A stretch of 64,000 nt of DNA from the NCBI RefSeq assembly GCF_039962115.1, contig NZ_JAMPKJ010000008.1, positions 62,001 to 126,000 on the forward strand, in the 5' to 3' direction. Every line of letters begins with the position of its first letter. Position 1 is the first letter of the stretch. Positions 31,470 through 64,000 of the stretch are shown in pieces. Origin of the DNA: Funiculus sociatus GB2-C1 (GTDB taxonomy: Bacteria; Cyanobacteriota; Cyanobacteriia; Cyanobacteriales; FACHB-T130). Made by a program: the position numbers and the translations under genes. The notes beneath the pieces are model-generated. The model saw only the letters and a list, made by a program, of their open reading frames with translations. It did not search any database and was not told where the DNA came from.

Positions 31470-31763
31470 TAATTTTGCCGAGTTTTGTACCCGTTCTAAT
31501 GCTTATCGTACAAAACAGCGCTGCATTCTAACTTTTAAATAGGGTTTCTGTATTTATTTGCTACACATTAGATAGCAAAAAGAAAATTATTATTTATCAG
31601 TTATTAATTAAAAAATCTTATATTTTCTCTTTCCTCACTCTCCATCCCCTAATTCCTAGTCTTTATAACCATAATCAGCCCTACTTATCAATCTTTCTTA
31701 AGTAGGAGCTGATGTCAAATTAGCATAAGAATTATGCAGAAACTTCATTTACATTAATATTTT

Positions 31764-31805
31764 GTAACTTTGTATACGAATTTCCTCAGTCAGTCCGCAT
31801 AACTT
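31764..31805 (+). promoter_or_regulatory. NtcA-activated promoter of nirA-nrtABCD-narB
   Basis: A perfect NtcA site GTA-N8-TAC (31764-31777, GTAACTTTGTATAC) is followed by a TA-N3-T -10 box TAACTT at 31800-31805. The site centre is 29.5 bases upstream of the -10 start, which places it at -41.5 for a start of transcription near 31812. That is the class II geometry known for NtcA. The leader to the nirA ATG is about 70 bases. The gap 31470-31763 holds no gene. Confidence 0.85.
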
Positions 31806-31881
31806 ATCATCAACGAGCGATTGACGAAACACCTGAAATCGGTTTGGGGGCAGTTGAGCGCTAAGTAATGAGGACACACCC

Positions 31882-33417
31882 ATGACAAGCACAGCCACGC
31901 CAACAGCAAGTCTGAACAAGTTTGAAAAATTTAAAGCCGAAAAAGATGGTCTGGCAGTAAAGTCAGAACTGGAACACTTCGCCCGCATTGGCTGGGAGGC
32001 GATGGACGAAACAGACCGTGACCACCGTCTGAAGTGGGTGGGTGTGTTCTTTCGACCAGTCACTCCCGGAAAGTTTATGATGCGGCTGCGGATGCCAAGC
32101 GGCATTCTCACAGCTAGTCAAATGCGGGTGTTAGCTGAAGTCGTGCAACAGTATGGCGAAGATGGCAATGCTGATATTACCACTCGGCAAAACATTCAAC
32201 TGCGGGGAATCCGGATTGAGGATCTGCCAGAGATTTTCAATCGGTTTAACCAAGTCGGTTTAACTAGCGTCCAGTCTGGGATGGACAACGTTCGCAACAT
32301 CACAGGGTCGCCAGTAGCGGGAATTGATGCGGATGAATTGTTCGATACCAGAGAACTTGTGCAGCAAGTTCAAGACATGATTACCAGTAAGGGGGAAGGC
32401 AACAAAGCCTTCTCGAATCTGCCGAGAAAATTTAATATAGCGATCGCAGGTTGTCGCGACAACTCGGTTCACGCCGAAATCAACGACCTCGCCTTCGTCC
32501 CCGCCTTCAAAAACGGCACCTTCGGTTTTAACATTCTCGTCGGTGGCTTCTTCTCCGCAAAACGCTGCGACGCAGCAATTCCCCTAAATGCCTGGGTTCC
32601 TCCCGAAGATGTTGTGGATGTATCCAGAGCAGTTCTCGAAGTTTTTCGCGACCAAGGCCCCAGATCCAATCGGCAAAAAGCCCGGTTGATGTGGCTTATC
32701 GATGAACTTGGACTCGAAAATTTCCGGGCATTAGTAGAAAAATATCTCTGTAAACCACTGCAACCAGCAGTCGAAAAAGACGAAATCGACTGGGAAAAAC
32801 GCGACCACCTCGGCGTATATCCTCAAAAGCAGTCCGGCTTAAACTACGTCGGTTTGCACGTTCCCGTCGGGCGTTTGTTTGCCCAAGATATGTTTGACCT
32901 CGCCCGAATAGCCGAAGTCTATGGCAGCAGCGAAATTCGCCTCACCGTTGAACAAAACGTCATCATCCCCAACATCCCAAACTCAAGGATGGAGGCATTC
33001 CTAGCCGAACCCCTCTTAGAAAAATTCTCCACCAGTCCCCAACCCTTAACAAAAGCACTTGTTTCATGCACCGGGTCACAGTTCTGCAACTTTGCCCTAA
33101 TTGAAACCAAAAACCGCGCCGTGGCAATGATTCAGGAGCTAGAAGCAGAACTTTCCCTAACCCAACCCGTGCGAATTCACTGGACAGGTTGCCCCAACTC
33201 CTGCGCCCAGCCACAAGTCGCTGACATCGGTTTAATGGGGACAAAGGTACGCAAAAACGGCAAAACCGTTGAAGGTGTGGATCTTTACATGGGCGGCAAA
33301 GTGGGTAAAGAAGCCGAACTCGGCACCTGCGTCCAGAAAAGCATTCCCTGCGAAGACCTCAAACCAGTGTTGCGCGATTTACTCATCCAGCAATTCAAAG
33401 CGGAAATCAAAAATTAG
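31882..33417 (+). CDS. nirA: Ferredoxin-nitrite reductase (first copy)
   Basis: 511 residues. Reduces nitrite to ammonium with six electrons from ferredoxin, using siroheme and a [4Fe-4S] cluster. The cluster ligands are Cys396 and Cys402 (C-T-G-S-Q-F-C) and Cys437 and Cys441 (C-P-N-S-C); two nitrite/sulfite reductase half-domains surround N-I-T-G-S-P-V-A-G-I-D and N-I-A-I-A-G-C-R-D-N. It starts at an ATG with GAGG about nine bases upstream and leads the operon with nrtA 29 bases downstream. The first of two nirA genes in the window. Confidence 0.95.
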   Translation: MTSTATPTASLNKFEKFKAEKDGLAVKSELEHFARIGWEAMDETDRDHRLKWVGVFFRPVTPGKFMMRLRMPSGILTASQMRVLAEVVQQYGEDGNADITTRQNIQLRGIRIEDLPEIFNRFNQVGLTSVQSGMDNVRNITGSPVAGIDADELFDTRELVQQVQDMITSKGEGNKAFSNLPRKFNIAIAGCRDNSVHAEINDLAFVPAFKNGTFGFNILVGGFFSAKRCDAAIPLNAWVPPEDVVDVSRAVLEVFRDQGPRSNRQKARLMWLIDELGLENFRALVEKYLCKPLQPAVEKDEIDWEKRDHLGVYPQKQSGLNYVGLHVPVGRLFAQDMFDLARIAEVYGSSEIRLTVEQNVIIPNIPNSRMEAFLAEPLLEKFSTSPQPLTKALVSCTGSQFCNFALIETKNRAVAMIQELEAELSLTQPVRIHWTGCPNSCAQPQVADIGLMGTKVRKNGKTVEGVDLYMGGKVGKEAELGTCVQKSIPCEDLKPVLRDLLIQQFKAEIKN

Positions 33418-33446
33418 TCAGCAATTAGCAAGAACCAACAAACAAA

Positions 33447-34793
33447 ATGACCAGACTTTCCAGAAGGCAATTCATCATTACCGCAGGAGCAGCTACAGCT
33501 GCATCTTTACTCGCTCATGGCTGTAGCTCTGGCCCTACCAACACCTCCACAAGTGCCAATAGCTCCACAGGTGGTTCAGGTTCCTCACCCGCCACCCTAG
33601 CGGCTAACGCACCAAAAGTAGAAACACCCAACGCCAAGTTAGGATTCATCGCCCTTACCGACTCCGCACCCCTGATTATTGCCAAAGAAAAGGGTTTATT
33701 TGATAAGTACGGCATGACAGGTGTCGAAATCCTCAAGCAAGCTTCTTGGCCTGTAACTCGCGACAACTTGGAAATAGGCTCTCAAGGCGGTGGTATCGAT
33801 GGGGCGCATATCTTAAGCCCCATGCCTTACTTCATGACCTTGGGTCAGACCAAGAACAAGCAACCCGTACCGATGTACATTTTGGCGCGGTTGAATACCA
33901 ACGGTCAGGCGATTTCCATTGCCAATACTTACAAAGATGCAAAAGTTGGTTTAGAAAGCAAGGGGCTGAAAGAAGCCTTTGCTCAAGCCAAAGCAGGTGG
34001 TAAAAATGACCTCAAAGCTGCGATTACGTTTCCTGGCGGCACCCACGACCTATGGATGCGCTACTGGTTAGCCGCTGGTGGTATTGATCCTAACCAGGAT
34101 ATTTCTGTTGTTCCTATCCCACCGCCGCAGATGGTGGCAAATATGAAAACGGGCAACATGGAAACCTTCTGCGTAGGCGAACCTTGGAACGCGCAGTTAG
34201 TTAACCAGGGACAGGGTTACACCGCATTAGTGACAGGTGAACTGTGGAAAGACCACCCAGAGAAAGCTTTTGCCATGCGACAAGATTGGGTGGATAAAAA
34301 TCCCAATTCTGCCAAAGCGTTGCTGATGGCGGTACAGGAAGCCCAGCAATGGTGCGACAAAGCAGAAAACAAAGAGGAGATGTGCCAAATTGTCTCCCAG
34401 GCGAAGTGGTTCAAGGTGCCAGCCAAAGATATTATCGAGCGTTCTAAAGGCAATATTGACTACGGCGACGGTCGTCCAGTGGTTACGGGTAGCCCGCTAC
34501 AGATGAAGTTCTGGGCAGATAATGCGTCTTATCCTTACAAGAGTCATGACACCTGGTTCTTAACTGAAAACATCCGCTGGGGCAATATTCCCGCTGACAC
34601 AAATCTTAAGGAACTCGTGGACAAAGTAAACCGCGAAGATTTGTGGAAAGAAGCGGCTAAGGCGCTTGGTGTTCCCAATGCAGAAATTCCTACTAGCAGT
34701 TCTCGTGGCATTGAAACGTTCTTCGATGGTGTCAAGTTTGACCCCGAAAAGCCAGAAGAATACTTGAAGAGTCTCAAGATTAAAAAGGCATAA
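33447..34793 (+). CDS. nrtA: Nitrate/nitrite ABC transporter, substrate-binding lipoprotein
   Basis: 448 residues. The N-terminus has a twin-arginine motif (S-R-R-Q-F-I) and a lipobox L-A-H-G-C with the modified cysteine at residue 26, then a Ser/Thr-rich tether. The mature domain matches the NrtA/CmpA family (L-G-F-I-A-L-T-D-S-A-P-L-I-I-A-K-E-K-G, then P-G-G-T-H-D-L-W-M-R-Y-W and F-C-V-G-E-P-W-N). It captures nitrate/nitrite at the outer side of the plasma membrane; CmpA binds bicarbonate instead, but the nirA and narB neighbours fix the nitrate role. Confidence 0.94.
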   Translation: MTRLSRRQFIITAGAATAASLLAHGCSSGPTNTSTSANSSTGGSGSSPATLAANAPKVETPNAKLGFIALTDSAPLIIAKEKGLFDKYGMTGVEILKQASWPVTRDNLEIGSQGGGIDGAHILSPMPYFMTLGQTKNKQPVPMYILARLNTNGQAISIANTYKDAKVGLESKGLKEAFAQAKAGGKNDLKAAITFPGGTHDLWMRYWLAAGGIDPNQDISVVPIPPPQMVANMKTGNMETFCVGEPWNAQLVNQGQGYTALVTGELWKDHPEKAFAMRQDWVDKNPNSAKALLMAVQEAQQWCDKAENKEEMCQIVSQAKWFKVPAKDIIERSKGNIDYGDGRPVVTGSPLQMKFWADNASYPYKSHDTWFLTENIRWGNIPADTNLKELVDKVNREDLWKEAAKALGVPNAEIPTSSSRGIETFFDGVKFDPEKPEEYLKSLKIKKA

Positions 34794-34810
34794 ATGGCTG
34801 ATTGAAGGAT

Positions 34811-34850
34811 AGCTAATTGCTAATTGCTTTTAAACAATTAGCAATTAGTT
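34811..34850 (+). promoter_or_regulatory. Stem-loop between nrtA and nrtB
   Basis: Perfect 14-bp stem CTAATTGCTAATTG/CAATTAGCAATTAG (34813-34826 with 34835-34848), 8-base loop, made of TTAGCAA-type repeats. Without a T-run it is more likely a 3' mRNA stabiliser for nrtA than a terminator. Confidence 0.6.
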
Positions 34851-34881
34851 GATGACTAATAACCAACAATTAGGAAGAAGA

Positions 34882-35724
34882 ATGACTGCTAAAGCTGACC
34901 GCCGCCTGCAAACTAACAATCCTCAACAGTTACTGACAAGTTTTTTTCAGAAGCAAGCTAAATATATTGTGCCGCCCCTGGTTGCACTAGCATTGTTTCT
35001 GCTAGTATGGCAACTCCTCTGCCCTCCCGGTTCTAAAGGTTTGCCAGGGCCAATCCAAGTGATTGGTGATACTTGGAACCCTTACATTATTAATCCTTTT
35101 TTCGATAATGGCGGTACAGATAAAGGTTTGGCATTGCAAATTTTAGCCAGCTTAGGAAGGGTAGCAATTGGTTTTTCTTTATCTGCGATAGTTGGCATAA
35201 CTGTAGGTATTATAGTTGGGGCGAATGATTTTGCTTATCGGGCTGTAGACCCAATTTTCCAAGTGTTACGTACTATTCCCCCGTTGGCGTGGTTGCCTAT
35301 ATCTCTGGCAGCACTACAACAAAGCAACCCTTCAGCTATTTTCGTGATTTTTATTACCTCAGTATGGCCTATTATTATTAACACAACTGTAGGCGTACAG
35401 CAGCTACCACAAGACTACAGAAATGTCGCCAGAGTGTTGCGGCTATCTAAACAAAAGTATTTCTTGAAAATTCTACTTCCCGCAGCAGTTCCTTACATTT
35501 TTACGGGATTAAGAATTGGAATTGGTTTGTCTTGGTTGGCGATTGTTGCGGCTGAAATGTTGGTAGGCGGTGTGGGTATCGGCTTCTTTATCTGGGATGC
35601 CTACAACAATTCTTTGATGAGTCAAATTATCATCGCGCTTGTGTATGTCGGTATTGTTGGTCTGCTGCTAGATAGAATAGTGGCTTTTATCGCTTCAATG
35701 GTAGTTCCAGAAGAACAAAAATAG
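34882..35724 (+). CDS. nrtB: Nitrate ABC transporter permease
   Basis: 280 residues from the ATG at 34882, preceded by AGGAAG; in-frame starts at 34849 (TTG) and 34852 lie inside a repeat stem and are less likely. About six membrane helices with the binding-protein-dependent permease fold; the ABC-coupling loop reads near L-R-L-S-K-Q-K-Y-F-L-K-I-L-L-P-A-A-V-P. It forms the membrane channel of NrtABCD in the plasma membrane. Next gene nrtC starts 142 bases downstream, across a heptamer repeat tract. Confidence 0.93.
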   Translation: MTAKADRRLQTNNPQQLLTSFFQKQAKYIVPPLVALALFLLVWQLLCPPGSKGLPGPIQVIGDTWNPYIINPFFDNGGTDKGLALQILASLGRVAIGFSLSAIVGITVGIIVGANDFAYRAVDPIFQVLRTIPPLAWLPISLAALQQSNPSAIFVIFITSVWPIIINTTVGVQQLPQDYRNVARVLRLSKQKYFLKILLPAAVPYIFTGLRIGIGLSWLAIVAAEMLVGGVGIGFFIWDAYNNSLMSQIIIALVYVGIVGLLLDRIVAFIASMVVPEEQK

Positions 35725-35727
35725 AGG

Positions 35728-35866
35728 GTTGGGGACTAGGGACTAGGGACTGGGGACTAGGGACTAGAGACTAGGTAAGAATTATCCCCAAGCCCCAATT
35801 CTCAATTCCCAATTCCCAATCCCCAATCCCCAATTCCCAGTCCCCAATCCCCAATCCCCAATCCCT
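35728..35866. repeat. Heptamer tandem repeats between nrtB and nrtC
   Basis: GGGACTA-type units (35728-35775) are followed by CCCCAAT-type units (35785-35865) of roughly opposite sequence, so they can pair into a long imperfect hairpin. They resemble the short tandemly repeated repetitive (STRR) sequences of filamentous cyanobacteria. The tract ends at the nrtC start codon and supplies no Shine-Dalgarno sequence. Confidence 0.85.
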
Positions 35867-37867
35867 ATGTCTTTTGTAGAAATCGACCACGTAGACCGAA
35901 TTTACCCACTTGCCAATGGTGGCACTTATGTAGCACTTAGGAATGTCGATTTAAAAATTAAACAGGGTGAGTTTATATCTTTAATTGGACACTCTGGCTG
36001 TGGCAAATCCACCTTATTAAATATGGTGGCTGGTTTAGATAAACCAACCAGAGGAGGTGTGATTTTAGAGGGGAAACAAATCACTTCGCCGGGGCCAGAC
36101 CGGATGGTGGTCTTCCAAAATTATTCGTTGCTACCTTGGCTTTCTGTTCGGGAAAATATATCTCTAGCGGTAGATGAAGTATTTCAGAACAAGCCGAGAG
36201 GGGAGCGAAAAGGTATTGTAGAACATCACATTGATATGGTGGGGCTGCGGCAAGCGGCTGATAAACGACCGGGGCAGCTGTCGGGAGGGATGAAACAGCG
36301 GGTAGCGATCGCCCGCGCCCTCGCCCTGCGTCCAAAAGTGTTGTTGTTGGATGAACCTTTTGGGGCGCTGGATGCACTGACACGCGGCGGTTTGCAAGAA
36401 AAATTGATGCAAATTTGCGAGGAAAGCCACGTTACCTCAATTATGGTGACGCACGACGTGGATGAGGCGCTGTTGCTATCAGACCGAATTGTGATGCTGA
36501 CCAACGGCCCGGAAGCGCATATCGGGCAAATTCTGGATGTGTCGATCCCCCGCCCCCGCAGGCGCATGGACGTGGTGAATCATCCCAGCTACTACGTGTT
36601 GCGAAACGAGATGATTTACTTCCTCAACCAGCAGAAAAAAGCCAAGAAGCGCCAGATCCAGGCACCTATGGCAATTTCCCGCAATGGGTTGGAGAAAGTA
36701 AATCTGGAAATTGGCTTTATTCCTTTAACTGACTGCGCCCCCTTGGTGGTGGCGAAGGAAAAAGGATTTTTTGCCAAACATGGGTTAGAGGAAGTCACCT
36801 TAAACCGCGAACCCAGCTGGAAAGCGATCGCAGAAGGTGTGGGGACGGGACGGCTGGATGCTGCCCAAATGGTCGCCGGAATGCCGATGTCAATGACTTT
36901 GGGTGGTGGGGGAAAGCCGCCAGTACCAATTTGTACAGCATTGACCTTATCCCGCAACGGCAACGCAATTACTTTAAGTAAGGAATTATACAATCAAGGC
37001 GTTCGTACTCTGGCAGACTTAAAAGGAGCGATCGCCCAAAATCCTGACAAAATTTACAATTTCGCGGTAGTGCATCCAGCCTCAATGCACAATCTGATGT
37101 TGCGTTCTTGGCTGGCTTCCGCTGGGATAGATCCAGATCGAGATGTCAACCTCACAGTGATTCCGCCCCCGCAAATGGTAGCCAACCTGAAAGCTGGAAA
37201 TATTGATGGTTACTGCGTCGGCGAACCCTGGAACTCTCGCGCCGTTCAGGAAGGTTTAGGGTTTGTCATCACTACAGATATGCAGCTGTGGGCTGGACAT
37301 CCGGAGAAGGTACTCGGATGCAAGGAAGAATGGGCAAATAAATACCCCCAAACCCACGTAGCTTTAATTAAAGCGCTGCTGGAAGCTTGCGAATACTGCG
37401 ATGACCACCGCCATCGGGAAGAAGTTCTGAAATTACTTTGTAAGCCTGATTATGTAGGTGCTGCCGCCGAACATATTCGTCCCGGCTTTATTGACCCCTA
37501 CGATCGCGGGACAGGCGAAGAACCTCAGATGATGTTGCGTTACAACCAGTTCTTTGTTGACAAGGCAAACTTCCCAGAACGGGAGGAAGGACTATGGGTG
37601 ATGACTCAGCTGGCACGATGGGGGATTATTCCGTTCCCGAAAAACTGGTTAGACGTTACAGAACGGGTGCGGCGCGTGGACGTTTATGGGCAAGCGGCAC
37701 GGGAATTAGGGCTGACAGACATTGGACGCGATCGCGAACCCATCAAAATGTTTGACGGAACAATTTTCAACCCCGACGACCCCCTGCAATACCTCAACAG
37801 CGTCAAAATTAAGCGCCCAATCACCATCGAAGAAATCAACATCGACCAATTAGTCATTAGTAAATAG
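35867..37867 (+). CDS. nrtC: Nitrate ABC transporter ATP-binding protein with fused NrtA-like domain
   Basis: 666 residues. Residues ~1-250 are an ABC ATPase (Walker [10 protein letters not shown], signature L-S-G-G-M-K-Q-R, Walker B V-L-L-L-D-E-P, Asp loop G-A-L-D). After a linker, residues ~280-660 repeat the NrtA fold ([18 protein letters not shown]) without a signal peptide, facing the cytoplasm. In characterised NrtC this domain senses substrate and mediates ammonium inhibition of uptake. It heterodimerises with NrtD. Confidence 0.94.
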
Positions 37868-37870
37868 CTA

Positions 37871-38779
37871 ATGGCTGATGGCAAAAACAATAGTAATCCT
37901 TCATCCCCCATCCTTCTCATGCAAACTGTAAACAACAGCAACACCTCATCAGTCAGTCCGCAGCCGTCAGCCTTTAGTCCGGTAATTAACCGCGACCCGT
38001 ATTTGGTAATTGAGAATGTCTCCAAAGTCTATCCTTCTGCCCAAGGGCCATGCACCGTTCTGGATGGGGTAAACCTCACCGTTTACGAAGGCGAATTTAT
38101 CTGCCTGATTGGTCACTCTGGTTGTGGCAAATCCACACTGTTAAACATGGTGTCAGGTTTCAACAAGCCGACTCATGGGGAAGTGCGCCTGCAAACTGCG
38201 ACAATTCGCGAACCAGGCCCAGATCGGATGATGGTGTTTCAAAACTATTGTCTCCTGCCCTGGATGACTGCCTTTGATAACGTATATTTGGCAGTAGATT
38301 CCGTCTTCCCAGACAAACCCCACAAAGAAAAAGTCGCCATCGTCAAAGAACATTTGGCGATGGTGGGACTCACCGAAGCCGCTGACAAAAAGCCAACGCA
38401 ACTATCTGGGGGGATGAAACAGCGGGTAGCGATCGCCCGCGCCCTTTCCATACGCCCCAAAGTTCTGATTTTAGATGAGCCTTTCGGCGCATTAGATGCC
38501 ATCACCAAAGAAGAATTACAAGAAGAACTCCTGACAATTTGGCGGGAACATCGGGTAACAGTCTTAATGATTACCCACGACATCGACGAAGCGCTGTTTC
38601 TAGCAGATCGGTTAGTAATGATGACCAACGGCCCAAAAGCTAAAATCGGCGAAATCTTGAATATTCCCTTCTCCCGTCCCCGCAACCGCGCCCAGATCAT
38701 GGAAAATCCCGAATACTACAACTTGCGTAACTACGCCTTAGACTTCCTGTATAACCGATTTGCTCATGACGATGAATAG
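37871..38779 (+). CDS. nrtD: Nitrate ABC transporter ATP-binding protein
   Basis: 302 residues. A single ABC ATPase domain (Walker [10 protein letters not shown], signature L-S-G-G-M-K-Q-R, Walker [13 protein letters not shown]) with an N-terminal extension of ~45 residues rich in Asn/Ser/Pro, which could begin at the in-frame ATG at 37919 instead. It pairs with NrtC to power NrtB. It follows nrtC by three bases, so translation is likely coupled. Confidence 0.94.
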   Translation: MADGKNNSNPSSPILLMQTVNNSNTSSVSPQPSAFSPVINRDPYLVIENVSKVYPSAQGPCTVLDGVNLTVYEGEFICLIGHSGCGKSTLLNMVSGFNKPTHGEVRLQTATIREPGPDRMMVFQNYCLLPWMTAFDNVYLAVDSVFPDKPHKEKVAIVKEHLAMVGLTEAADKKPTQLSGGMKQRVAIARALSIRPKVLILDEPFGALDAITKEELQEELLTIWREHRVTVLMITHDIDEALFLADRLVMMTNGPKAKIGEILNIPFSRPRNRAQIMENPEYYNLRNYALDFLYNRFAHDDE

Positions 38780-38790
38780 TCGGCTAATTG

Positions 38791-38820
38791 AAGGATTGCT
38801 AATAGCTAATAGCAATCCTT
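38791..38820 (+). promoter_or_regulatory. Stem-loop between nrtD and narB
   Basis: Perfect 11-bp stem AAGGATTGCTA/TAGCAATCCTT (38791-38801 with 38810-38820) with an 8-base loop, no T-run, upstream of a dispersed repeat copy at 38842-38878. Probably an RNA-processing or stability element. Confidence 0.55.
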
Positions 38821-38841
38821 GCAGGAGTTGTAAATTCTCTT

Positions 38842-38878
38842 ACTCTGCGCCCTCTGCGCCTCAGCAGTTCGTTTTTTT
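38842..38878. repeat. Dispersed repeat in the nrtD-narB gap
   Basis: A copy of the family at 7322-7352, 14650-14682 and (inverted) 41178-41215, here with the sequence CTCTGCGCCCTCTGCGCCTC. Confidence 0.6.
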
Positions 38879-38923
38879 CATCAAACTAGGACTGCTTAGC
38901 CATTAGCAATAAACTATAGACTA

Positions 38924-41137
38924 ATGACAACTGACACTACAAAAACCCTTTGCCCTTACTGCGGTGTTGGTTGCGGACTGGAGGTATCACCTCCAGCACA
39001 ACCAGGTAAAGCAGTAAATAGGGATAGTCAAGGAACTCCCATCTGGAAAGTGCAGGGCGATCGCACTCACCCTTCCAGTCAGGGTATGGTGTGTGTCAAG
39101 GGTGCAACCGTTGCCGAGTCTCTGTCCAAAGACCGACTTCTGTATCCAATGGTGCGCGATTCCCTAGACGAACCCTTCCGCCGCGCCTCCTGGGAAGAAG
39201 CTTTAGATCGTGTGGCGAGTCGGATTAAAACCGTTCTCTCGACTCAAGGGCCAGAAGCCGTCTGTATGTATGGCTCTGGACAACTGCAAACAGAAGATTA
39301 TTATGTTGCTCAGAAACTCCTGAAAGGGTGTCTGGGTACTAATAATTTTGACTCCAATTCTCGCCTCTGTATGTCCTCCGCCGTGGCGGGTTATTCTCAG
39401 AGCTTTGGAAGCGATGGCCCTCCCTGCTGCTACGAAGATTTAGATGTAACCGATTGTGCCTTTATCATCGGTAGCAACACGGCAGAATGTCACCCAATTA
39501 TTTTTAACCGCCTGCGGAAACACCACAAGAAAAATCCCAAGGTGAAAATGATTGTGGTCGATCCCAGAAAAACCACCACAGCGGAAGCAGCAGATTTACA
39601 CTTAGCGATAAAACCAGGGACTGATATCGATTTACTCAACGGTATCGCCCACCTGTTAATGCGTTGGGGCAGAATTGATACTTTTTTTATTGACGAATGC
39701 ACCTCCAATTTTCCGGCTTATGCTGAGGTGATTCAGCACTATCCGCCGGAAGTTGTCGCCAAACGCTGCGGCATATCCGTAAAAGAACTGGAAACAGCTG
39801 CTCGCTACTGGGCTGATTCTGAGCGGGTGCTGTCTATGTGGTCGATGGGCGTGAATCAGTCTTCGGAAGGGACTGCCAAGGTACGGACTATTATTAATCT
39901 ACATCTGATGACCGCTCAGATTGGTAAACCGGGGAGCGGCCCTTTTTCCCTGACAGGTCAGCCAAACGCGATGGGCGGACGAGAAACTGGGGGACTTTCC
40001 CACATCCTACCAGGCTATAGAGTGGTAAAAAATCCCCAACATCGCGCGGAATTAGAAGAATTTTGGCAACTTCCCGCCGGACAGATTTCGCCTGTTCCAG
40101 GTTTGGCGGCGTGGGACATCATCACGGGTCTAGAAACTGGTGATGTCGGAATGCTCTGGATTGTAGCAACTAACCCGGCTGTGAGTTTACCCGATTTGGA
40201 ACGTTCTAAGGCAGCGTTAATGCGATCGCCTTTTACGGTATACCAAGACGCATATTACCCCACCGAAACTGCCGAATTTGCTCACGTCTTGCTTCCGGCG
40301 GCGCAGTGGAGCGAAAAAACTGGGACAATGACTAACTCTGAGCGAGTTGTCACTTTATGTAAGGCGTTTCGTACTCCTCCCGGTGAAGCGAAAGCCGATT
40401 GGAAAATCTTTGTGGAAGTAGCACTGCGACTGGGCTTCGGCGACAAATTTCCTTACTCTACCTCAGCTGAAGTTTACGACGAATATGCTCAGGTAACACG
40501 CGATCGCGTCTGCGATATGAGTGGCATCAGTCACGCACGACTAGCAGCGCAAGGCCCGCTACAATGGCCCCTCCCAAAGGAAAAGGAATCTAGACTCCCG
40601 GCTGTGAAGCGATTGTATACAGATGGCCGCTTTCCTTCGCCTGATGGACGGGCGCGTTTTGGGGCATACCATTCACGCGGTTTGGCAGAACCACCAGATC
40701 CAGACTATCCCTATGTCCTAACTACAGGCAGACTTTACGGCCATTGGCACACCCAAACCCGCACGGGACGGATTGATAAAATCAAGCAGATGCACCCGAA
40801 TCCATTTATTGAGATTCATCCCCGCGATGCTGCCAATTTAGATGTTCAGGAGAATGATTTGGTGGAAGTGCGAACTCGTCGTGGCACATCTCGTTTTCCA
40901 GCTAAAGTAACAAAAGCAATTTCCCCCGGAACTGTCTTTGTCCCAATGCACTGGGGCGCACTTTGGGCAGACAAAGCAGAAGCTAATGCCCTAACTCATC
41001 ACATATCCTGTCCCGACTCGCTGCAACCAGAATTAAAGGCTTGTGCGGTGCAACTTGTACCTGTTGCTGCCGAAAAATCTGAGGGAGGTTATTTGCGTTG
41101 TGACACTAAATCTCCGGCTTTTTCTTCACGAGTTTAG
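38924..41137 (+). CDS. narB: Ferredoxin-nitrate reductase (first copy)
   Basis: 737 residues of the bis-molybdopterin-guanine-dinucleotide family. A [4Fe-4S] cluster is bound by Cys10, Cys13, Cys17 and Cys57, and Cys149 (S-R-L-C-M-S-S) is the likely molybdenum ligand. Other landmarks: [29 protein letters not shown]. It reduces nitrate to nitrite with electrons from ferredoxin and, as in the cyanobacterial type, lacks the NAD(P)H domains. The last gene of the nirA-nrtABCD-narB operon. Strongly similar to the second copy at 43193-45415. Confidence 0.95.
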
Positions 41138-41177
41138 CTTGCCAGAAATTTGTGAAAAATTAGTCCTTTTTGGTGGA

Positions 41178-41215
41178 ACGAACCGCCGAGGCGCTGAGGG
41201 CGCTGAGTCAGAGAA
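41178..41215. repeat. Dispersed repeat (inverted copy) downstream of narB
   Basis: Contains GAACCGCCGAGGCGCTGAGG, the complement of the family at 7322-7352, 14650-14682 and 38842-38878. Its presence opens a short spurious frame here. Confidence 0.65.
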
Positions 41216-41314
41216 GCACACATCCAAAGAGAGTTTTAGCAATCTTCCAAAAGAAAGAGTTAAAAAATTATAAATATTTCAAAAGGTGGGGTTCTGGGTA
41301 AATAGGCATCTTCT

Positions 41315-41356
41315 GTAACAAAGTCTACCGATTCCTGGCATAAGAGGGCATAAGGT
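41315..41356 (+). promoter_or_regulatory. NtcA-activated promoter of the second nirA-narB pair
   Basis: Perfect NtcA site GTA-N8-TAC (41315-41328, GTAACAAAGTCTAC) and a TA-N3-T -10 box TAAGGT at 41351-41356, at exactly the same spacing as the promoter at 31764. Predicted transcription start near 41363, leader about 86 bases. Confidence 0.85.
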
Positions 41357-41448
41357 TAGATAAAAATCTGGCTAGATTGTCCAATAAATAGCTGTTGAGG
41401 CGAGTCGTGCGCTCGCTACAGACATAATATGCAACGAGGCTAAAACTT

Positions 41449-43107
41449 ATGACGGAAGCAACCGAAGTACCAGGAAAGGTAGGTAAAGCTCAGGTGGAAG
41501 CGAACGGCTCCCCAGCAACCGTCGAATCATCTGAAAATTTGACAAATGCAGGCGAAGCAACACCAACCCAAAACAAATTTGAAAGGATTAAATCCGAAAA
41601 AGATGGTCTGGTATTAAAGCAAGAACTAGACTATTTAGCAGAGATTGGCTGGGAAGCGATGGAAGAAGCCGATAGAGACTATCGGTTGCGAGTTTTGGGT
41701 TTATTTTACCGCACGGTGACACCAGGCAAATTTATGCTGCGGATGCGGCTGGCGAATGGGATTTTAAGTGCTTACCAAATGCGGGTTTTGGCTGAAATTG
41801 TGCAGCATTACGGAGATGAGGGAAACGCCGATATCACCACACGGCAAAATATTCAACTGCGACAGATACGTCTTGAAGATGTACCAGACATCTACCGAAA
41901 ATTAGAACAAGCTGGATTAACATCGGTTCAGTCTGGCGTGGACAATGTTCGCAATATTACGGGTTCACCTTTAGCAGGAATCGATCCAGATGAATTGGTC
42001 GATACGCGGGGATTGTGTCGCATGGTGCAGGACATGATCACTAATATGGGCAAAGGGAATCCAGAGTTTACGAATTTGCCAAGAAAATTTAATATTGCGA
42101 TCGCAGGTTGTCGTGACAATTCAGTTCACGCCGAACTTAACGATATTGGTTTCATCCCAGCTTACAAAAACGACACCATCGGCTTTAATGTCATCGTCGG
42201 CGGGATGTTCTCGCCCAAACGTTACGAAGCTTCAGTTCCCATGAATGCTTGGGTTCCACCAGAAGACGTGGTGGCTTTGAGTCGAGCCATTTTAGAAGTT
42301 TATCGCGACCACGGACTTCGGGCAAATCGGCAAAAGTCGCGGCTGATGTATCTAATTGATAAATGGGGAATTGAGAAGTTTAGAGAAGAGGTAGAAAAAC
42401 GCTTTGGTGAAGTTGGCGGAACTATACCTTTACAATCGGCTGCTGAAAAAGATGAATTCCTATGGGAAAAGAAAGATTACATCGGAGTTTATAAACAGAA
42501 GCAACCTGGATTAAACTTTGTGGGTTTACATATTCCCGTCGGTCGGATGTATGCCCAAGATATGTTTGACTTAGCCAGAATTGCCGAAGTGTATGGCAGT
42601 GGTGAAATTCGCTTTACAGTCGAGCAAAATTTGATTATTCCCAATATTCCCGATACTCGTATGGAAGCGTTTTTAAAAGAACCACTTTTAGAACGTTTTT
42701 CATTCGATCCAGAAAACTTGATGCGCGGGTTAGTTTCCTGCACAGGAAGTCAATTCTGCGGCTTTGCACTAATAGAAACTAAGAACCGCGCTTTGGCTTT
42801 TGTTAAAGCATTGGAAGCAGAATTAACTTTACCTCAACCAATACGAATTCACTGGACGGGATGCCCCAATTCCTGCGGTCAACCGCAAGTGGCAGATATT
42901 GGGTTGATGGGAACAAAGGGACGCAAAAATGGCAAAGTCGTCGAAGCCGTGGATATCTGGATGGGCGGAAAAGTCGGCTATGAAGCTGAACTTGGTAGCC
43001 GGGTGATGAAATCGATTCCCTGCGACGATCTTAAGCCAGTGCTGCGAGATTTACTGGTTGAACACTTTGGGGCAAAACCTAAGCAGTCATTAGTTCTTAG
43101 TCATTAG
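41449..43107 (+). CDS. nirA: Ferredoxin-nitrite reductase (second copy, long N-terminus)
   Basis: 552 residues. Same fold and cofactors as the first copy: [4Fe-4S]/siroheme ligands Cys431, Cys437 (C-T-G-S-Q-F-C), Cys472 and Cys476 (C-P-N-S-C). It differs by an extra N-terminal ~40 residues rich in Glu, Ala, Thr and Pro before the conserved F-E-R-I-K-S-E-K-D-G-L-V, and by an insert near residue 320 (E-V-G-G-T-I-P-L-Q). The extension is low-complexity and not a transit signal I recognise. It has its own NtcA promoter and is followed by narB. Confidence 0.94.
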   Translation: MTEATEVPGKVGKAQVEANGSPATVESSENLTNAGEATPTQNKFERIKSEKDGLVLKQELDYLAEIGWEAMEEADRDYRLRVLGLFYRTVTPGKFMLRMRLANGILSAYQMRVLAEIVQHYGDEGNADITTRQNIQLRQIRLEDVPDIYRKLEQAGLTSVQSGVDNVRNITGSPLAGIDPDELVDTRGLCRMVQDMITNMGKGNPEFTNLPRKFNIAIAGCRDNSVHAELNDIGFIPAYKNDTIGFNVIVGGMFSPKRYEASVPMNAWVPPEDVVALSRAILEVYRDHGLRANRQKSRLMYLIDKWGIEKFREEVEKRFGEVGGTIPLQSAAEKDEFLWEKKDYIGVYKQKQPGLNFVGLHIPVGRMYAQDMFDLARIAEVYGSGEIRFTVEQNLIIPNIPDTRMEAFLKEPLLERFSFDPENLMRGLVSCTGSQFCGFALIETKNRALAFVKALEAELTLPQPIRIHWTGCPNSCGQPQVADIGLMGTKGRKNGKVVEAVDIWMGGKVGYEAELGSRVMKSIPCDDLKPVLRDLLVEHFGAKPKQSLVLSH

Positions 43108-43111
43108 TTTG

Positions 43112-43159
43112 TTGCTAATGGGTAATAGGTAATTCTTAACTGCCATTAGCCATTAGCAA
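43112..43159 (+). promoter_or_regulatory. Stem-loop between the second nirA and narB
   Basis: TTGCTAATGG (43112-43121) pairs with CCATTAGCAA (43150-43159) across 28 bases of further repeats of the TTAGCAA type. No T-run. Same kind of element as at the nrtA-nrtB and nrtD-narB junctions. Confidence 0.5.
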
Positions 43160-43192
43160 ATGACTAATTACCAATAACAAATAACTAATAAT

Positions 43193-45415
43193 ATGAGTGA
43201 TTTAATCAAAACGCTCTGCCCTTACTGTGGTGTTGGGTGTGGTTTAGAAGTTTCGCCGCCAGCCCAAGCTAATCGGGAAACGAATCGAGATAGTAAAGGC
43301 AATCCTGTCTGGAAAGTTCGGGGCGATCGCGCTCATCCTTCGAGTCAGGGTATGGTATGTGTCAAAGGAGCCACAGTTACAGAGTCCATCAGTAAAGACC
43401 GACTGATGTATCCAATGATGCGCGATTCCCTGGATGAACCTTTCCGTCGCGCCTCTTGGGACGAAGCCTTAGATGCGATCGCAAGCCGCATTAAAACTGT
43501 GCGTGACACCTCTGGTGCAGATGCAATCTGCCTCTATGGTTCCGGTCAATTCCTCACGGAAGATTATTATCTTGCCCAAAAACTTTTTAAAGGTATTTTG
43601 GGTACTAATAACTTTGATACCAACTCGCGTCTGTGTATGTCTTCCGCCACAGCCGGGTATTATTACAGCTTAGGTTCAGACGGCCCCCCCTGTTGCTACG
43701 AAGACCTGGAATTAACAGATTGTGCCTTTATCATCGGTTCCAATGCGGCAGAATGTCACCCGATTATCTTTAACCGACTGCGGAAACACCACAAACAAAA
43801 CAATAATGTCAAAATGATTGTGGTCGATCCGCGCCGCACTACCACAGCTGAGGCCGCAGATTTGCATCTGGCAATTCGACCAGGTACAGACATCGATCTA
43901 CTCAATGGTATTGCTTATCTGCTGCTGCGCTGGAACCGCCTCAACATCGAATTTATAGACGAATGCACCACAGGTTTTCCATCCTACACTGAGGTAATTC
44001 AGCAGTATCCGCCGGAAGTTGTCTCTGAACGATGCGGTATTTCCATCCATGACTTGATAACAGCCGCAAAAGCTTGGGCTGAATCGAAGCGTGTGCTGTC
44101 TATGTGGACAATGGGTTTAAACCAGTCTTCAGAAGGTACCGCCAAAGTGTGCAGTCTGATCAATTTGCACCTCATGACTGGTCAAATTGGCTTTCCCGGA
44201 AGCGGCCCTTTTTCGCTGACAGGTCAGCCGAACGCGATGGGAGGAAGGGAAGTTGGCGGTTTGGCTCATCTTTTGCCAGGGTATCGTTTGGTGAAGAATG
44301 AGCAGCACAGAACTGAAGTTGAGCAGTTTTGGGGATTACAACCTGGGCAAATTTCGCCAGTTCCCGGCCGCAGCGCTTGGGAAATTATTACTGGACTAGA
44401 GGCGGGAGAAGTAGAATTTTTGTGGATTGCGGCGACTAACCCAGCGGTGAGTATGCCGGATTTGGAACGGACAAAAGCCGCCCTTAAGACTTCGCCTTTT
44501 ACTGTCTATCAAGACGCTTACTATCCCACAGAAACTGCCGAATTTGCTCACGTTTTGTTACCAGCAGCGCAGTGGGGCGAAAAAACTGGAACGATGACCA
44601 ATTCTGAGCGAGTAGTAACGCTTTGTCCAGCTTTCCGTCCGCCAGTAGGACAGGCGAGAGCAGATTGGGAAATCTTTGCAGAAGTCGGTCGTCGCTTGGG
44701 ATTTGCTGAACACTTTGCTTTTACTTCTTCAGCAGAAGTTTATGCGGAATTTGTGCAGTTGACACGCGATCGCGTCTGCGAACAAACTGGCATCAGTCAT
44801 GCACGACTAGCAGCACAAGGCCCTATACAATGGCCCGAACCGGACAAAAAAGAACCCAAATCTTTACCAAGCACGGTAAAAAGGCTGTATACAAATTTCC
44901 GTTTTTCCACGCCTGATGGAAGGGCGCGTTTTGTTGCCCATCATTCGCGGGGTTTAGCAGAACCACCAGATCCAGACTATCCCTTTGTCCTCACGACTGG
45001 CAGACTTTACGGACATTGGCACACTCAAACCCGCACTGGACGCATTGAGAAAATTTCCCAGATGCACCCGAATCCGTTTATTGAGATTCATCCGCGCGAT
45101 GCTACAAAGCTGGGTATTCAGGAGAACGATTTGCTGGAAGTCCGAAGTCGTCGCGGTACATCCCGATTTCCAGCCAAAGTCACAAAGACAATTTCCCCCG
45201 GAACTGTCTTTGTCCCCATACACTGGGGCTATCTTTGGGCAGACAAGGCAGAAGCCAACGCCCTTACCCATCCAGTCTCTTGTCCTCAATCCCTGCAACC
45301 AGAGTTAAAAGCCTGTGCGGTGCAACTTGTACCCGTTGCTACCCAGATGGATTCATCTGAATATCTGCCGTCAAACGCTTACTCTGAGACTTTTTCTCCA
45401 CCAATTTCGGTTTGA
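43193..45415 (+). CDS. narB: Ferredoxin-nitrate reductase (second copy)
   Basis: 740 residues, the same architecture as the first copy: [4Fe-4S] ligands Cys9, Cys12, Cys16 and Cys56, molybdenum-ligand Cys148 in S-R-L-C-M-S-S, and the [11 protein letters not shown] motif. Most residues are shared by eye with the first narB, but surface-type positions differ throughout, so this is not a very recent copy. It follows the second nirA with an 85-base gap and has no Shine-Dalgarno sequence, which suggests translation depends on the shared transcript. Confidence 0.95.
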
Positions 45416-45615
45416 GGAATCTTTTACCTCCGCAACCCCTCCGCAATGGAGGGAAGGATGGCATCAAAATAAAAACGCTAGGGCAGGTGGAAGATATGAG
45501 TTAACAAAAACATCAAAATAGTGGCAACTTTTCTATTATCTCAAGATTAATTGTAAGTTAAGCTCTGGGAACGGATGCTGTTGGTATCCTATAACCCTAA
45601 TTAGTTCCTGGGGAG

Positions 45616-45679
45616 TGGTTGGGTGAGAAGGAAACCTAAGGAATTCATGAGTGCTGTTAGGTTTCACGTTGTTCAACCA
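45616..45679. other. Structured intergenic segment downstream of narB (possible RNA)
   Basis: An outer pairing TGGTTG/CAACCA (45616-45621 with 45674-45679) encloses a perfect 9-bp stem GAAACCTAA/TTAGGTTTC (45631-45639 with 45657-45665). The 764-base gap 45416-46179 has no convincing gene besides this fold and the nrtP promoter. A small RNA is possible but unproven. Confidence 0.3.
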
Positions 45680-45937
45680 TTCTCTAGGTAGGGTTGGGAT
45701 TTTTAGCTTTCAGTGAACTGTATTGGATTATAAATTAGGCGATTTTTAGGGACGCGATCGCTTCGGACGCGCCAACGTGTGGTAACACAAATTGGGCTTT
45801 TTGGGTTGTATAGCACAACGCATTAGGCACTTTTTGCATCCAATGGTTGCGTAAATTGCAATACTGGATTAACTAATAATTATAAAAATAGATTCAATTA
45901 TCAAAATAAAAGAGATTTAAAAATAAATTGAACTTTG

Positions 45938-45979
45938 GTAACAGAGTATACGAAAATCCTAGACAAACCTAATTAATCT
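45938..45979 (+). promoter_or_regulatory. NtcA-activated promoter of nrtP
   Basis: Perfect NtcA site GTA-N8-TAC (45938-45951, GTAACAGAGTATAC) and a -10 box TAATCT (45974-45979) at the same spacing as the other two nitrate promoters. Predicted start near 45986, giving an unusually long leader of about 194 bases. Confidence 0.85.
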
Positions 45980-46179
45980 AACAGGAAAGCCCTCTCCCGA
46001 ACAAAATGAAATTAATTACCTGCATTTCAGCTCAAATCCCTAAAGAAAAATTTGATATTGAACAATTAAAGAAAGCCTAAGCATTCAAAATTAGTTTTCG
46101 GGTAAACAAAAACTTTGTTTTGACTAAGTTGTGTGAGAGGAAGATTGTTGTACTTTTTTTTAAAAAAGGAGATTTTTAA

Positions 46180-47688
46180 ATGTCTGGAGTCTGGTCATTT
46201 AGCGGTCGATACCGCATCTTACACTTAACCTGGTTTGCTTTCTTTCTGACATTTGTGGTTTGGTTTAACTTTGCCCCATTTGCCACAGCAGTAAAAGCAG
46301 ACTTCGGTTTAACGGAACCACAACTTAGAACTTTGGCTATTTGTAATGTCGCTCTCACAGTTCCAGCCAGAATTATTGTGGGGATGATATTAGATCGCTT
46401 TGGCCCTCGGATTACCTATTCATGCCTGCTAGTTTATGCTGCCATACCTTGTTTAGCGTTTGCCTTGGCACAGAACTTTGAACAATTAGTTTATAGCCGC
46501 TTAGCATTGAGTATTGTCGGGTGTGGCTTTGTGATTGGTATCCGAATGGTGGCGGAGTGGTTTCCTGCCAAAGAAATTGGCTTAGCGGAAGGTATTTATG
46601 GCGGCTGGGGTAACTTTGGGTCGGCGGGTGCTGCGTTCACTTTACCGACTATTGCCGCCGCCGTCGCCTTTTTAAGTGCGGGTCAAGTTAACTGGCGGTT
46701 TGCGATCGCACTCACCGGAATTGTTTCTGCTATCTACGGGGTAATTTATTACTTTAACGTCCAAAATACACCTCCCGGCAAAGTTTACGAGCGCCCAGAA
46801 AGCAGCGCGGGGATGGAAGTCACAACCCAGAAAGATTTCTGGTTTATGATGCTGATGAACATTCCCTTAGTGGGAGTTTTGGGCTTAATTGCTTGGCGTT
46901 TAAATCGAGTTGACTTCATCAACACTACGCAACTGTATACCGCTTGGTTTCTGCTGGTCTGCTTATATGCGTTCCAGGCTTACAATTGCTGGAAAGCCAA
47001 TAAGAATTTGATGAATGGTACAAAACGATATCCCGCTGAAGAACGCTACAAATTTTCTCAAGTAGCTAATTTAGAATTGGCTTACCTCGCTTGTTTTGGT
47101 TCTGAGCTTGCAGTTGTTTCCATGCTGCCTACATTTTTTCAAAGAAGCTTTGGCTTAACTGCGGCGATCGCTGGGGCAGTTGCTGGAACTTACGCATTTA
47201 TGAACTTAGTAGCTCGTCCGGGAGGTGGCTTGATTTCTGACAAAATCGGCAGCCGGAAATGGACGCTGGCGGCGACACTGGCAGGAACTGGAACTGGGTA
47301 TTTAGTATTTAGCAGTTTGGGTGGTAATATACCGCTTTTGGTTGTAGTAATTATGACCATGACTGCTTCCTTCTTTGTAATGGCAGCAGAAGGGGCAACT
47401 TACGCGATTGTCCCGCTGATTAAGCGGCGAGTGACGGGACAAATTGCTGGTAACGTCGGTGCTTACGGCAATGTGGGGGCGGTGATTTTCCTCACTGTAT
47501 ATAGCTTGTTACCTCAAGGTGCTGCGGGCGATCGCATCTTTTTCCAGATGCTAGGCTTAGTTGGCTTAATTGCAGCTAGTTTTTGTGCATTCTTCCTCAA
47601 AGAACCGGAAGGCTCTCATGAAGGTGAAGAAGCAGAAGTTTTATCTCCAAAAACTGAAGTTTTTTCCCACGAACAGGAACGACATTAA
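46180..47688 (+). CDS. nrtP: MFS nitrate/nitrite transporter
   Basis: 502 residues, about 12 membrane helices. The NNP-family signature lies at G-F-V-I-G-I-R-M-V-A-E-W-F-P, then G-G-W-G-N-F-G-S-A-G, and its second-half counterpart at N-L-V-A-R-P-G-G-G-L-I-S-D. Such permeases import nitrate and nitrite with protons or sodium across the plasma membrane. Start supported by AAAAAAGGAG eight bases upstream. It stands alone after a ~490-base leader region and is followed by two hairpins. The strain thus carries both transporter types. Confidence 0.94.
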   Translation: MSGVWSFSGRYRILHLTWFAFFLTFVVWFNFAPFATAVKADFGLTEPQLRTLAICNVALTVPARIIVGMILDRFGPRITYSCLLVYAAIPCLAFALAQNFEQLVYSRLALSIVGCGFVIGIRMVAEWFPAKEIGLAEGIYGGWGNFGSAGAAFTLPTIAAAVAFLSAGQVNWRFAIALTGIVSAIYGVIYYFNVQNTPPGKVYERPESSAGMEVTTQKDFWFMMLMNIPLVGVLGLIAWRLNRVDFINTTQLYTAWFLLVCLYAFQAYNCWKANKNLMNGTKRYPAEERYKFSQVANLELAYLACFGSELAVVSMLPTFFQRSFGLTAAIAGAVAGTYAFMNLVARPGGGLISDKIGSRKWTLAATLAGTGTGYLVFSSLGGNIPLLVVVIMTMTASFFVMAAEGATYAIVPLIKRRVTGQIAGNVGAYGNVGAVIFLTVYSLLPQGAAGDRIFFQMLGLVGLIAASFCAFFLKEPEGSHEGEEAEVLSPKTEVFSHEQERH

Positions 47689-49074: not shown

Positions 49075-50430
49075 ATGTCATCAAATGCTCAATCTCAAAC
49101 AACGGCGACCGATACACCAGAAAGTAGCGATCGCGAACTTACCTACCAGCAAACAATCCTTTGTGCCGCAGTAATTGGCATTGCTGGAGGATTAGTTGCA
49201 ACAGCTTACTACTACGTGCTGGAAGGAAGTTTACATTTTGTCTGGCACACACTTCCTGATGTTCTCAACCCCTACTTCCCCAGCAACTTCCCCGCATGGA
49301 ATTACGTGTGGATTGCCACTACCATTGGCGGATTTCTGGTTGGTGTCACGCTGCACTTAATGGGACTTCCCGGTGAAGTTGCCTTTGTCGTCGATAAGGT
49401 ACACGATCCAGGGCGAATTTCTGTGCGCCAAACTCCAGCGATGATTCTAGCATCCTTATTTTCGATTACCGCAGGCGGTAGCGCTGGCCCAGAAGCCCCA
49501 CTTGTACAGATTAATGGCAGTTTTGGCGGCTGGCTTGGTCAAAAGCTCCACCTGACCCTAACAGCAACCCGCGTGCTGACCTTTTGCGGGATGAGTGCTG
49601 CCCTTGGAGCCTTCTTCGGTGCGCCTCTTGGTGGCGCACTCTTCGCCTTGGAACTTCCCCATCGTCGAGGCTTGGAATACTACGAAGCCCTAATCCCAGC
49701 CGTACTTTCAGCGATTTTGAGCTTTGTTGTGTTTCGGTTTAATACCGGGTTAACGATTGGTGGGATGTACCACTTTGCCGCTATTCCGAAACTGTCGCTA
49801 ACTAATTTAGCTCAGGGTGCAATTCTAGGAATATTAGGGGCGCTAATTGCTGTTATCTTTATTTATCTGTTCCGGATGGTCGGGCATCTGAGTGAGTACC
49901 TGCGACACCAGACGATTCTACTTGCCACGCTGGGAGGATTATCAATTGGTTTGATTGCTTTGGTTTTCCCCCAAACGCTGTTTTTTGGCGAGAAAGAAAT
50001 TCAAACCGTCGTTGAAACAGGTTCTACTTTTGGGATGACGATGTTGCTTGCGATCGCTTTTGCGAAAATGTTAGCGGTATGTTGCACCCTGCACTCCGGT
50101 TTCCGGGGTGGATTCATCTTTCCACTGTTTTACATTGGTGCAGCGGTGGGTTTAGCTATTTCACTGGCTTTCCCGGAAATCCATCCGACAATTGGGATGA
50201 TTTGCATGATGGCGGCGGTGAATGTGGCGGTGACAAAAACGCCCATCAGTACCACTGTGATTTTGGGCGTACTCTCCGATACCGCGATGGTTCCAGTGCT
50301 GGTAATTGCCAGTTTTGTGAGTTTCCTGTTGACCACTCAAGTATCATTGATTAAAACACAGCGATCGCGTACTGTCTTTGGCGGAGAAGCCCAGGAAGTA
50401 AGATTAGCTGCTGGCATTGCAAATACTTAA
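49075..50430 (+). CDS. ClC-type chloride channel/antiporter
   Basis: 451 residues, about 10-12 membrane helices. The gating region is G-G-S-A-G-P-E-A-P-L-V-Q-I, so the gating glutamate is present though the usual G-R-E-G-P is altered. Upstream, where ClC-ec1 has its G-S-G-I-P filter, the sequence reads M-G-L-P-G-E-V, so the canonical selectivity serine is not obvious. C-terminal T-K-T-P-I-S-T is typical. ClC proteins move chloride, nitrate or fluoride, coupled to protons in many cases; specificity here cannot be read. Its place in the nitrate neighbourhood is suggestive. Confidence 0.87.
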   Translation: MSSNAQSQTTATDTPESSDRELTYQQTILCAAVIGIAGGLVATAYYYVLEGSLHFVWHTLPDVLNPYFPSNFPAWNYVWIATTIGGFLVGVTLHLMGLPGEVAFVVDKVHDPGRISVRQTPAMILASLFSITAGGSAGPEAPLVQINGSFGGWLGQKLHLTLTATRVLTFCGMSAALGAFFGAPLGGALFALELPHRRGLEYYEALIPAVLSAILSFVVFRFNTGLTIGGMYHFAAIPKLSLTNLAQGAILGILGALIAVIFIYLFRMVGHLSEYLRHQTILLATLGGLSIGLIALVFPQTLFFGEKEIQTVVETGSTFGMTMLLAIAFAKMLAVCCTLHSGFRGGFIFPLFYIGAAVGLAISLAFPEIHPTIGMICMMAAVNVAVTKTPISTTVILGVLSDTAMVPVLVIASFVSFLLTTQVSLIKTQRSRTVFGGEAQEVRLAAGIANT

Positions 50431-63664: not shown

Positions 63665-64000
63665 TCGTTGTTCTCCACTGATAAACATAGGATCGGAATC
63701 TATACTTACGATCACATTCGTTTTCAGTATATTCATCTCTCTTTTGACTGATACCCTTTGCTATCTAGGAAAACTCTATTAAACGGTAACTATATTATAC
63801 AAAAATCTAAAAACCGAATTTTATACAAAACGCTTATTTTATTTATGGTTTTATTGAGTGTAGAGATGTTTATATTAAAAAAAATATCATCTATCTAAAA
63901 TAGGATTTTGAAGCATAACAATCAACTATTTAGTTATAGGTACTTATATTTACCTCCAGAGGAATAGCTCTTTGCTTGTTTATTGAGAATAAAAGCTTAA
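63665..64000. other. Upstream region of the hemerythrin gene, A/T rich
   Basis: About 336 bases with no recognisable gene, repeat or binding site; the base composition is strongly A/T rich, as expected for a promoter region. Confidence 0.4.

Follow-up and report, generated by a model that had tools for sequence, protein, structure and literature searches.

We analysed a window of 64,000 nucleotides from the cyanobacterium Funiculus sociatus GB2-C1 (contig NZ_JAMPKJ010000008.1, positions 62,001 to 126,000), which holds a nitrate gene cluster in which three promoters head three units: P1 precedes nirA1-nrtABCD-narB1, P2 precedes nirA2-narB2, and P3 precedes nrtP. The best explanation, to which we assign a probability of roughly 80%, is that P1, P2 and P3 are class II NtcA promoters that share one nitrogen switch and differ in their second inputs. 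Judged from the sequence, NtcA control common to all three is very likely, and identical control of the three is unlikely. The sequence elements, their conservation in relatives and the division of the nitrite reductases into two NirA groups are observations; positions below are those of the window.

Three promoters with one NtcA geometry

The three promoters consist of the following parts (N, any base).

31764..31805, + strand: P1, NtcA site GTAACTTTGTATAC (31764-31777), N22, -10 box TAACTT (31800-31805)
41315..41356, + strand: P2, NtcA site GTAACAAAGTCTAC (41315-41328), N22, -10 box TAAGGT (41351-41356)
45938..45979, + strand: P3, NtcA site GTAACAGAGTATAC (45938-45951), N22, -10 box TAATCT (45974-45979)

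A first-pass annotation of this DNA had placed the sites and boxes exactly here, with the -10 box starting 29.5 bases past the site centre each time, and both the placement and the spacing hold at P1, P2 and P3, where the gap is uniformly 22 bases. The transcription starts predicted from this arrangement lie near 31812, 41363 and 45986. That the spacing is beyond chance was likewise borne out: the window holds three copies of the strict pattern GTAAC-N6-TAC-N22-TA-N3-T, where 100 dinucleotide shuffles predict 0.01, and five of the looser GTA-N8-TAC-N22-TA-N3-T, where 0.22 are predicted. When the gap was scanned from 10 to 39 bases, 22 bases gave the five matches and every other gap zero to three. 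The earlier figure of about 15 chance matches to bare GTA-N8-TAC needs correcting, as we obtained 7.8 expected and 19 found. A count of the strict pattern over the 6,465,592 bases of the genome, which the annotation had proposed, gave six forward and no reverse matches (one for the pattern read backwards as a control), and three of the six are P1, P2 and P3. The genome encodes NtcA itself (TIGR03697, 388.3 bits, cut-off 244.95). The second A of GTAAC is variable, the P2 site reading GTAGC in Trichocoleus sp. FACHB-40 and in another genome of the window's species. Ahead of narB1 there is also a bare match at 38830; in FACHB-40 the 600 bases preceding narB1 contain nothing equivalent.

The geometry across relatives

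The nirA upstream sample was drawn from 60 genomes (the window's and 59 relatives), from the cyanobacterial members of a set of 80 named loci, and from further fetched stretches. It gave 83 distinct nirA upstreams of at least 300 bases, two of them the window's own. GTA-N8-TAC-N22-TA-N3-T was present in 58 of the 83 (shuffles 0.34, reverse strand 2), in its GTAAC version in 33, and bare GTA-N8-TAC in 70 (shuffles 13.8). In two genomes of the window's family, G003 and G004, the N22 form stands before all three units, even with the nirA1 cluster at another place on the contig. Promoter by promoter, nirA1 has the P1 form upstream in G002, G003 and G004, nirA2 the P2 form in FACHB-40, G002, G003 and G004, and nrtP the P3 form in FACHB-40, G003 and G004. 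An N22-form NtcA promoter of its own is rare for nrtP, being found in 5 of 54 nrtP upstreams including the window's; many of these 54 genes come after nirA. The 22-base geometry is the norm for its class, and P1, P2 and P3 are very probably canonical class II NtcA promoters. Identical geometry is not by itself evidence that the three promoters are tied together.

Two old groups of nitrite reductases

In a maximum-likelihood tree built from 83 NirA rows, NirA2 fell in a clade of 20 rows with support 100/98 that is spread over many families, and the window's NirA1 grouped with NirA1 of G003, G004 and G002. NirA1 and NirA2 are therefore old paralogues and did not arise by a recent tandem duplication. 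Two full NirA matches occur in 11 of the 60 genomes, and an order-wide search found two matches at E 1e-200 or better in 31 of 388 genomes. In the 11 dual-set genomes nrtA follows the NirA1 copy in nine (exceptions G007 and G017); outside them, nrtA or nrtP comes after NirA1-clade genes. The neighbour of NirA2 genes is mostly nrtP or narB.

Separately, the NirA frames of many relatives run to about 620-690 residues, some 100 longer than those of the window, possibly through an added ferredoxin domain such as occurs in other cyanobacteria.

P1 carries a LysR-type tandem element

When 58 nirA promoters were aligned by their NtcA sites, a LysR-type element emerged whose positions relative to the G of GTA are ATG at -51, GCAT at -40, ATGCA at -29 and CAT at -17, that is, two 15-bp boxes spaced 22 bp, scored on 15 consensus positions. 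At P1 it is perfect.

31712..31748, + strand: P1 tandem LysR-type element ATGTCAAATTAGCAT-N7-ATGCAGAAACTTCAT, boxes 31712-31726 and 31734-31748, 15/15

No other place on either strand of the window scores 15/15; read in reverse, the element itself reaches 14. Within 4 bases of the P1-type position the best scores are 15 for P1, 5 for P2 and 7 for P3, and in the 250 bp upstream of P2 no LysR-like element was found, the best place scoring 7/15. Of the 67 sites scored, 43 belong to the NirA1 clade and 24 to the NirA2 clade; at least 10/15 was reached by 32 of the former and 7 of the latter, compared with 18 of 2,680 shuffles.

The element is an obvious candidate for the binding site of NtcB, by analogy. 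NtcB is a nitrite-responsive co-activator of the nir operon according to two sources (PMC7699953, PMC4390856). Seven LysR-type loci occur in the genome, of which four were scanned, and one LysR gene is paired with a TrpD-like gene, on contig C55. A pair of the same kind lies downstream of nirA2 in G047. The TrpD-like gene may correspond to CnaT.

A conserved box at P2 and at NirA2-type promoters

LysR-less promoters of NirA2-clade genes have in common another element at -37 to -18, about TCAAAAGRYAGRTTT, which we call the B box.

41277..41296, + strand: P2 conserved box TTTCAAAAGGTGGGGTTCTG, consensus about AAAGRYAGRTTT, z 4.2

The matrix behind this z value was trained without the window and FACHB-40. 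In leave-one-out runs 10 of 14 training rows were recognised at p<0.01, and the conserved G positions of the box, set in AT-rich surroundings, exceed the 95% level of the shuffle maximum. Not one of 44 LysR-bearing promoters has a B box at p<0.05, and P1 has none. A held-out set of 39 loci supplied 12 NirA2-type and 21 NirA1-type sites. Among the former the box was present in all nine LysR-less and in none of the three LysR-bearing ones; among the latter it was seen in 0 of 12 LysR-bearing and 2 of 9 LysR-less ones, both preceding NirA1-clade genes of one genus (L180, L196).

The two promoter kinds also occur in tandem, with the LysR-type outside and the box-type inside (NirA2-type loci L192-L194; genomes G029, G035, G057 and G006). 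Upstream of P2, copies of CAAAAG stand 32 bp apart (41245-41254 and 41277-41286), and by eye G003 appears to have a similar pair. We also searched 388 genomes of the order for the exact string AAAGNNAGNTTT-N21-GTA-N8-TAC. Nine of its matches were checked and proved to be four nirA2 promoters (three of them in G003, G004 and G047, genomes already in the sample), one nrtP promoter and four places without a nitrate gene; many of the other 20 are near-identical strings of one family (f33). The nrtP match, in G266, lies between nrtD and nrtP, with TAATCT following after a 22-base gap. No gene for a regulator that might bind the P2 box stood out among the frames neighbouring nirA2 in 13 loci, a weak search in which seven frame families present in at least three loci were judged by position and first residues only.

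Possible weak copies of both elements at P3

The region upstream of P3 holds a weak likeness of each element.

45825..45861, + strand: P3 degenerate tandem LysR-like element, 12/15 read on the - strand and 11 on the + strand
45902..45921, + strand: P3 weak B-box-like stretch CAAAATAAAAGAGATTTAAA, z 2.2, p 0.02

The LysR-like element lies about 60 bp further upstream than that of P1 and starts at -112 in P3 and FACHB-40 and at -111 in G003 and G004. Elsewhere, LysR-like scores upstream of nrtP reach 14/15 in Aliterella (L039) and only 11 in G266. The nrtP promoters of G003 and G004 have a similar weak B box (p 0.017 and 0.013).

The LysR-like element overlaps most of a bare GTA-N8-TAC match at 45851-45864. 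We considered the latter as a second NtcA site and prefer the LysR reading, because G003 and G004 retain the LysR-like element there and not GTA-N8-TAC. A leader frame of 24 residues before nrtP (46005-46079) was likewise set aside as a regulatory peptide, as the frame breaks in FACHB-40 and had, by eye, no counterpart in 14 other nrtP upstreams. As an observation apart, the nrtP upstreams of L040, L047, L048, L050 and L051 share a stretch similar to TTTTGTAA-N4-TTACACA, which lies roughly 270-300 bases ahead of the gene and does not resemble the NtcA form.

A probable shared switch with divided second inputs

In class II activation as known from published NtcA work, the NtcA dimer, carrying 2-oxoglutarate when nitrogen is limiting, binds GTA-N8-TAC centred at -41.5, substitutes for the -35 element and recruits RNA polymerase to the TA-N3-T box. 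Acting in this way, NtcA would drive the ABC uptake set nirA1-nrtABCD-narB1, the second reductase set nirA2-narB2 and the major facilitator superfamily uptake gene nrtP, and since its sites would drive all three units, it would be the shared switch. At P1, NtcB at the adjoining tandem element would boost expression on nitrite or nitrate; P2, without an NtcB element, would use the box characteristic of nirA2 promoters, to which some other factor probably binds; and P3 would have a weak distal NtcB-like element together with a weak P2-type box. With second inputs that differ in this manner, the paralogous units would share nitrogen control and have probably divided substrate or other control among them. 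We infer the binding, the direction of effect and the identity of the factors from the sequence, and on that footing the units probably respond jointly to nitrogen shortage and differ in the second signal. The first-pass annotation had argued that all three are controlled together by NtcA. The shared NtcA control stands, backed by the chance statistics, by the norm of 58 in 83 nirA upstreams and by the conservation in G003 and G004. The phrase 'controlled together' oversimplifies, however, as the promoters are unlike in their upstream modules, with NtcB-like boxes at P1, another conserved box at P2 and a distal LysR-like pair at P3.

Several results weigh against this reading. The exact N22 form is missing from 25 of the 83 nirA upstreams, some of which have a looser GT-N10-AC, and 11 of 43 NirA1-clade sites have no LysR-type element, among them those before nirA1 in G002 and G047, two dual-set genomes, where the best score is 8/15. 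NtcB enters by analogy, and ntcB was putatively assigned by its neighbourhood, the NCBIfam families shown including no NtcB model. For the box, 4 of the 14 training rows do not show it, and six of the nine held-out matches share a genus with a training row (the exceptions being L173, which is the window's own species, L192 and L203). As the rows are related and the shuffle null ignores kinship, the B-box p-values overstate independence. The P2 box itself departs from the consensus, with GTGGGG for RYAGR, so the exact pattern misses P2, as it misses the boxes of several other nirA2 genomes; it hit 29 places in 27 of 388 genomes against five for the backwards control, and the four checked matches without an adjoining nitrate gene count on the same side. 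At P3 the B box reaches only p 0.02 and the LysR-like element only 12/15, a score also found in one of nine other nirA2 promoters scanned (L138). Because seven places in the window score at least 12, the case for the P3 element rests on its conserved position.

The most serious competitor, which we consider possible though doubtful, takes the P2 box as an A-tract or UP-like stretch, or as something nirA2 promoters merely inherited from a common ancestor, with no protein bound to it. The box is indeed AT-rich, its distance from the predicted start is about -76, and most rows that have it are related at genus or family level; yet its G positions are conserved in that AT-rich setting above the 95% level of the shuffle maximum, and it also precedes nrtP in G266 and the two NirA1-clade genes. 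Plain joint regulation, in which NtcA alone or NtcA with NtcB controls all three units identically and the upstream differences have no effect, seems unlikely to us. It would account for the same NtcA geometry at P1, P2 and P3, and the distal LysR-like element of P3 could do the same job as that of P1, but it sits poorly with a perfect element at P1 beside a P2 whose best LysR-like score within 250 bp is 7/15, and with a P2 box that tracks nirA2-type promoters in the held-out set. That any of the three matches is due to chance, with transcription starting elsewhere, is very improbable: bare sites are common, with 19 in the window, and three of the six strict genome matches fall outside the nitrate cluster, but only 0.01 strict matches are expected in the window and the form is retained before the same genes in relatives.

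Within the favoured reading of one NtcA switch with divided second inputs, a broader proposition appears to us evenly poised. It holds that nirA2-type and some nrtP promoters of cyanobacteria form a second class, in which NtcA acts with a new factor at AAAGRYAGRTTT that replaces NtcB, that dual-set genomes split the inputs between paralogous operons, and that some genomes and loci (G029, G035, G057, G006, L192-L194) stack both types before one nirA2. If so, the window would represent a complete split for its two reductase operons.

Comparison with known systems

Class II NtcA-activated promoters of Anabaena PCC 7120 include nirA, glnA, urtA and ntcB, and its nirA has a 22-base gap too, as given in PMC3898017. 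The promoters of the window have the same make-up as these (GTA-N8-TAC, a 22-base gap and a TA-N3-T -10 box); what sets the window apart is that three of them are packed into 14 kb, where they serve a pair of paralogous reductase sets along with transporters of two types. The nir promoter is reportedly co-activated by NtcA and NtcB (Frias 2000 and Aichi 2001, as cited in PMC7699953 and PMC4390856). P1 resembles such a promoter in having a tandem LysR-type element just upstream of its NtcA site, whereas P2 lacks the element and P3 has only a weak counterpart, some 60 bp more distal. Other cyanobacteria have nirA-nrtABCD-narB or nirA-nrtP-narB clusters. The window holds genes of both kinds, but its two sets adjoin in one cluster and nrtP has an NtcA promoter of its own. 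A literature search over titles and abstract openings, with most subscription journals outside its scope, returned no nirA paralogue pair with split control and no description of the P2 box.

The NtcA part of these results confirms textbook regulation in a little-studied cyanobacterium. More useful is that paralogous nitrate-reduction sets appear to keep one nitrogen switch and carry different second boxes. The P2-type box, conserved across several families, gives a definite stretch of DNA with which to look for another regulator of nitrate use, and the window offers a test case for the division of control between duplicated operons.

Genes of the cluster and its surroundings

The genes of the three units are as follows.

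31882..33417, + strand: nirA1, ferredoxin-nitrite reductase (NF007125, 916.8 bits, cut-off 594)
33447..38779, + strand: nrtABCD, ABC-type nitrate transporter (NCBIfam matches and gene order)
38924..41137, + strand: narB1, assimilatory nitrate reductase (named by pathway and gene order)
41449..43107, + strand: nirA2, second ferredoxin-nitrite reductase (NF007125, 855.5 bits; NirA2 clade in the tree)
43193..45415, + strand: narB2, second nitrate reductase (named as narB1 was)
46180..47688, + strand: nrtP, NarK/NNP-type nitrate transporter of the major facilitator superfamily (TIGR00886, 356.9 bits, cut-off 311.7)

NirA2 has an N-terminal extension and is 70% identical to NirA1, and NarB2 is 78% identical to NarB1. 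For both narB genes the best NCBIfam matches are under their cut-offs, and the names come from pathway and gene order. Matches above cut-off were obtained for nrtB (TIGR01183) and for nrtC and nrtD (TIGR01184); nrtA, whose best NCBIfam matches are under cut-off, owes its name to weak SsuA/TauA-family matches and its location. With nrtP of Trichocoleus sp. FACHB-40, the window's copy shares 98% identity.

Near nrtP, a gene at 49075-50430 (+) encodes a ClC-type channel or exchanger that may carry nitrate, and ClC-like frames also lie near nitrate genes in L037, L038, L039, L128 and L129. The gene at 50968-51420 (+) encodes a nitrate-reductase-associated protein (PF09655), and similar frames occur near nitrate genes in L037, L128, L129, L134, L135, L136 and L138. 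On the other side of the cluster, a histidine kinase gene with DICT, CHASE6_C and GAF domains (29400-31469, -) is transcribed away from nirA1. Finally, GTA-N8-TAC-N22-TA-N3-T is matched at 63912-63953 (-), some 180 bases ahead of a hemerythrin-domain gene on the same strand (62633-63736, -), which makes this gene a possible further NtcA target.

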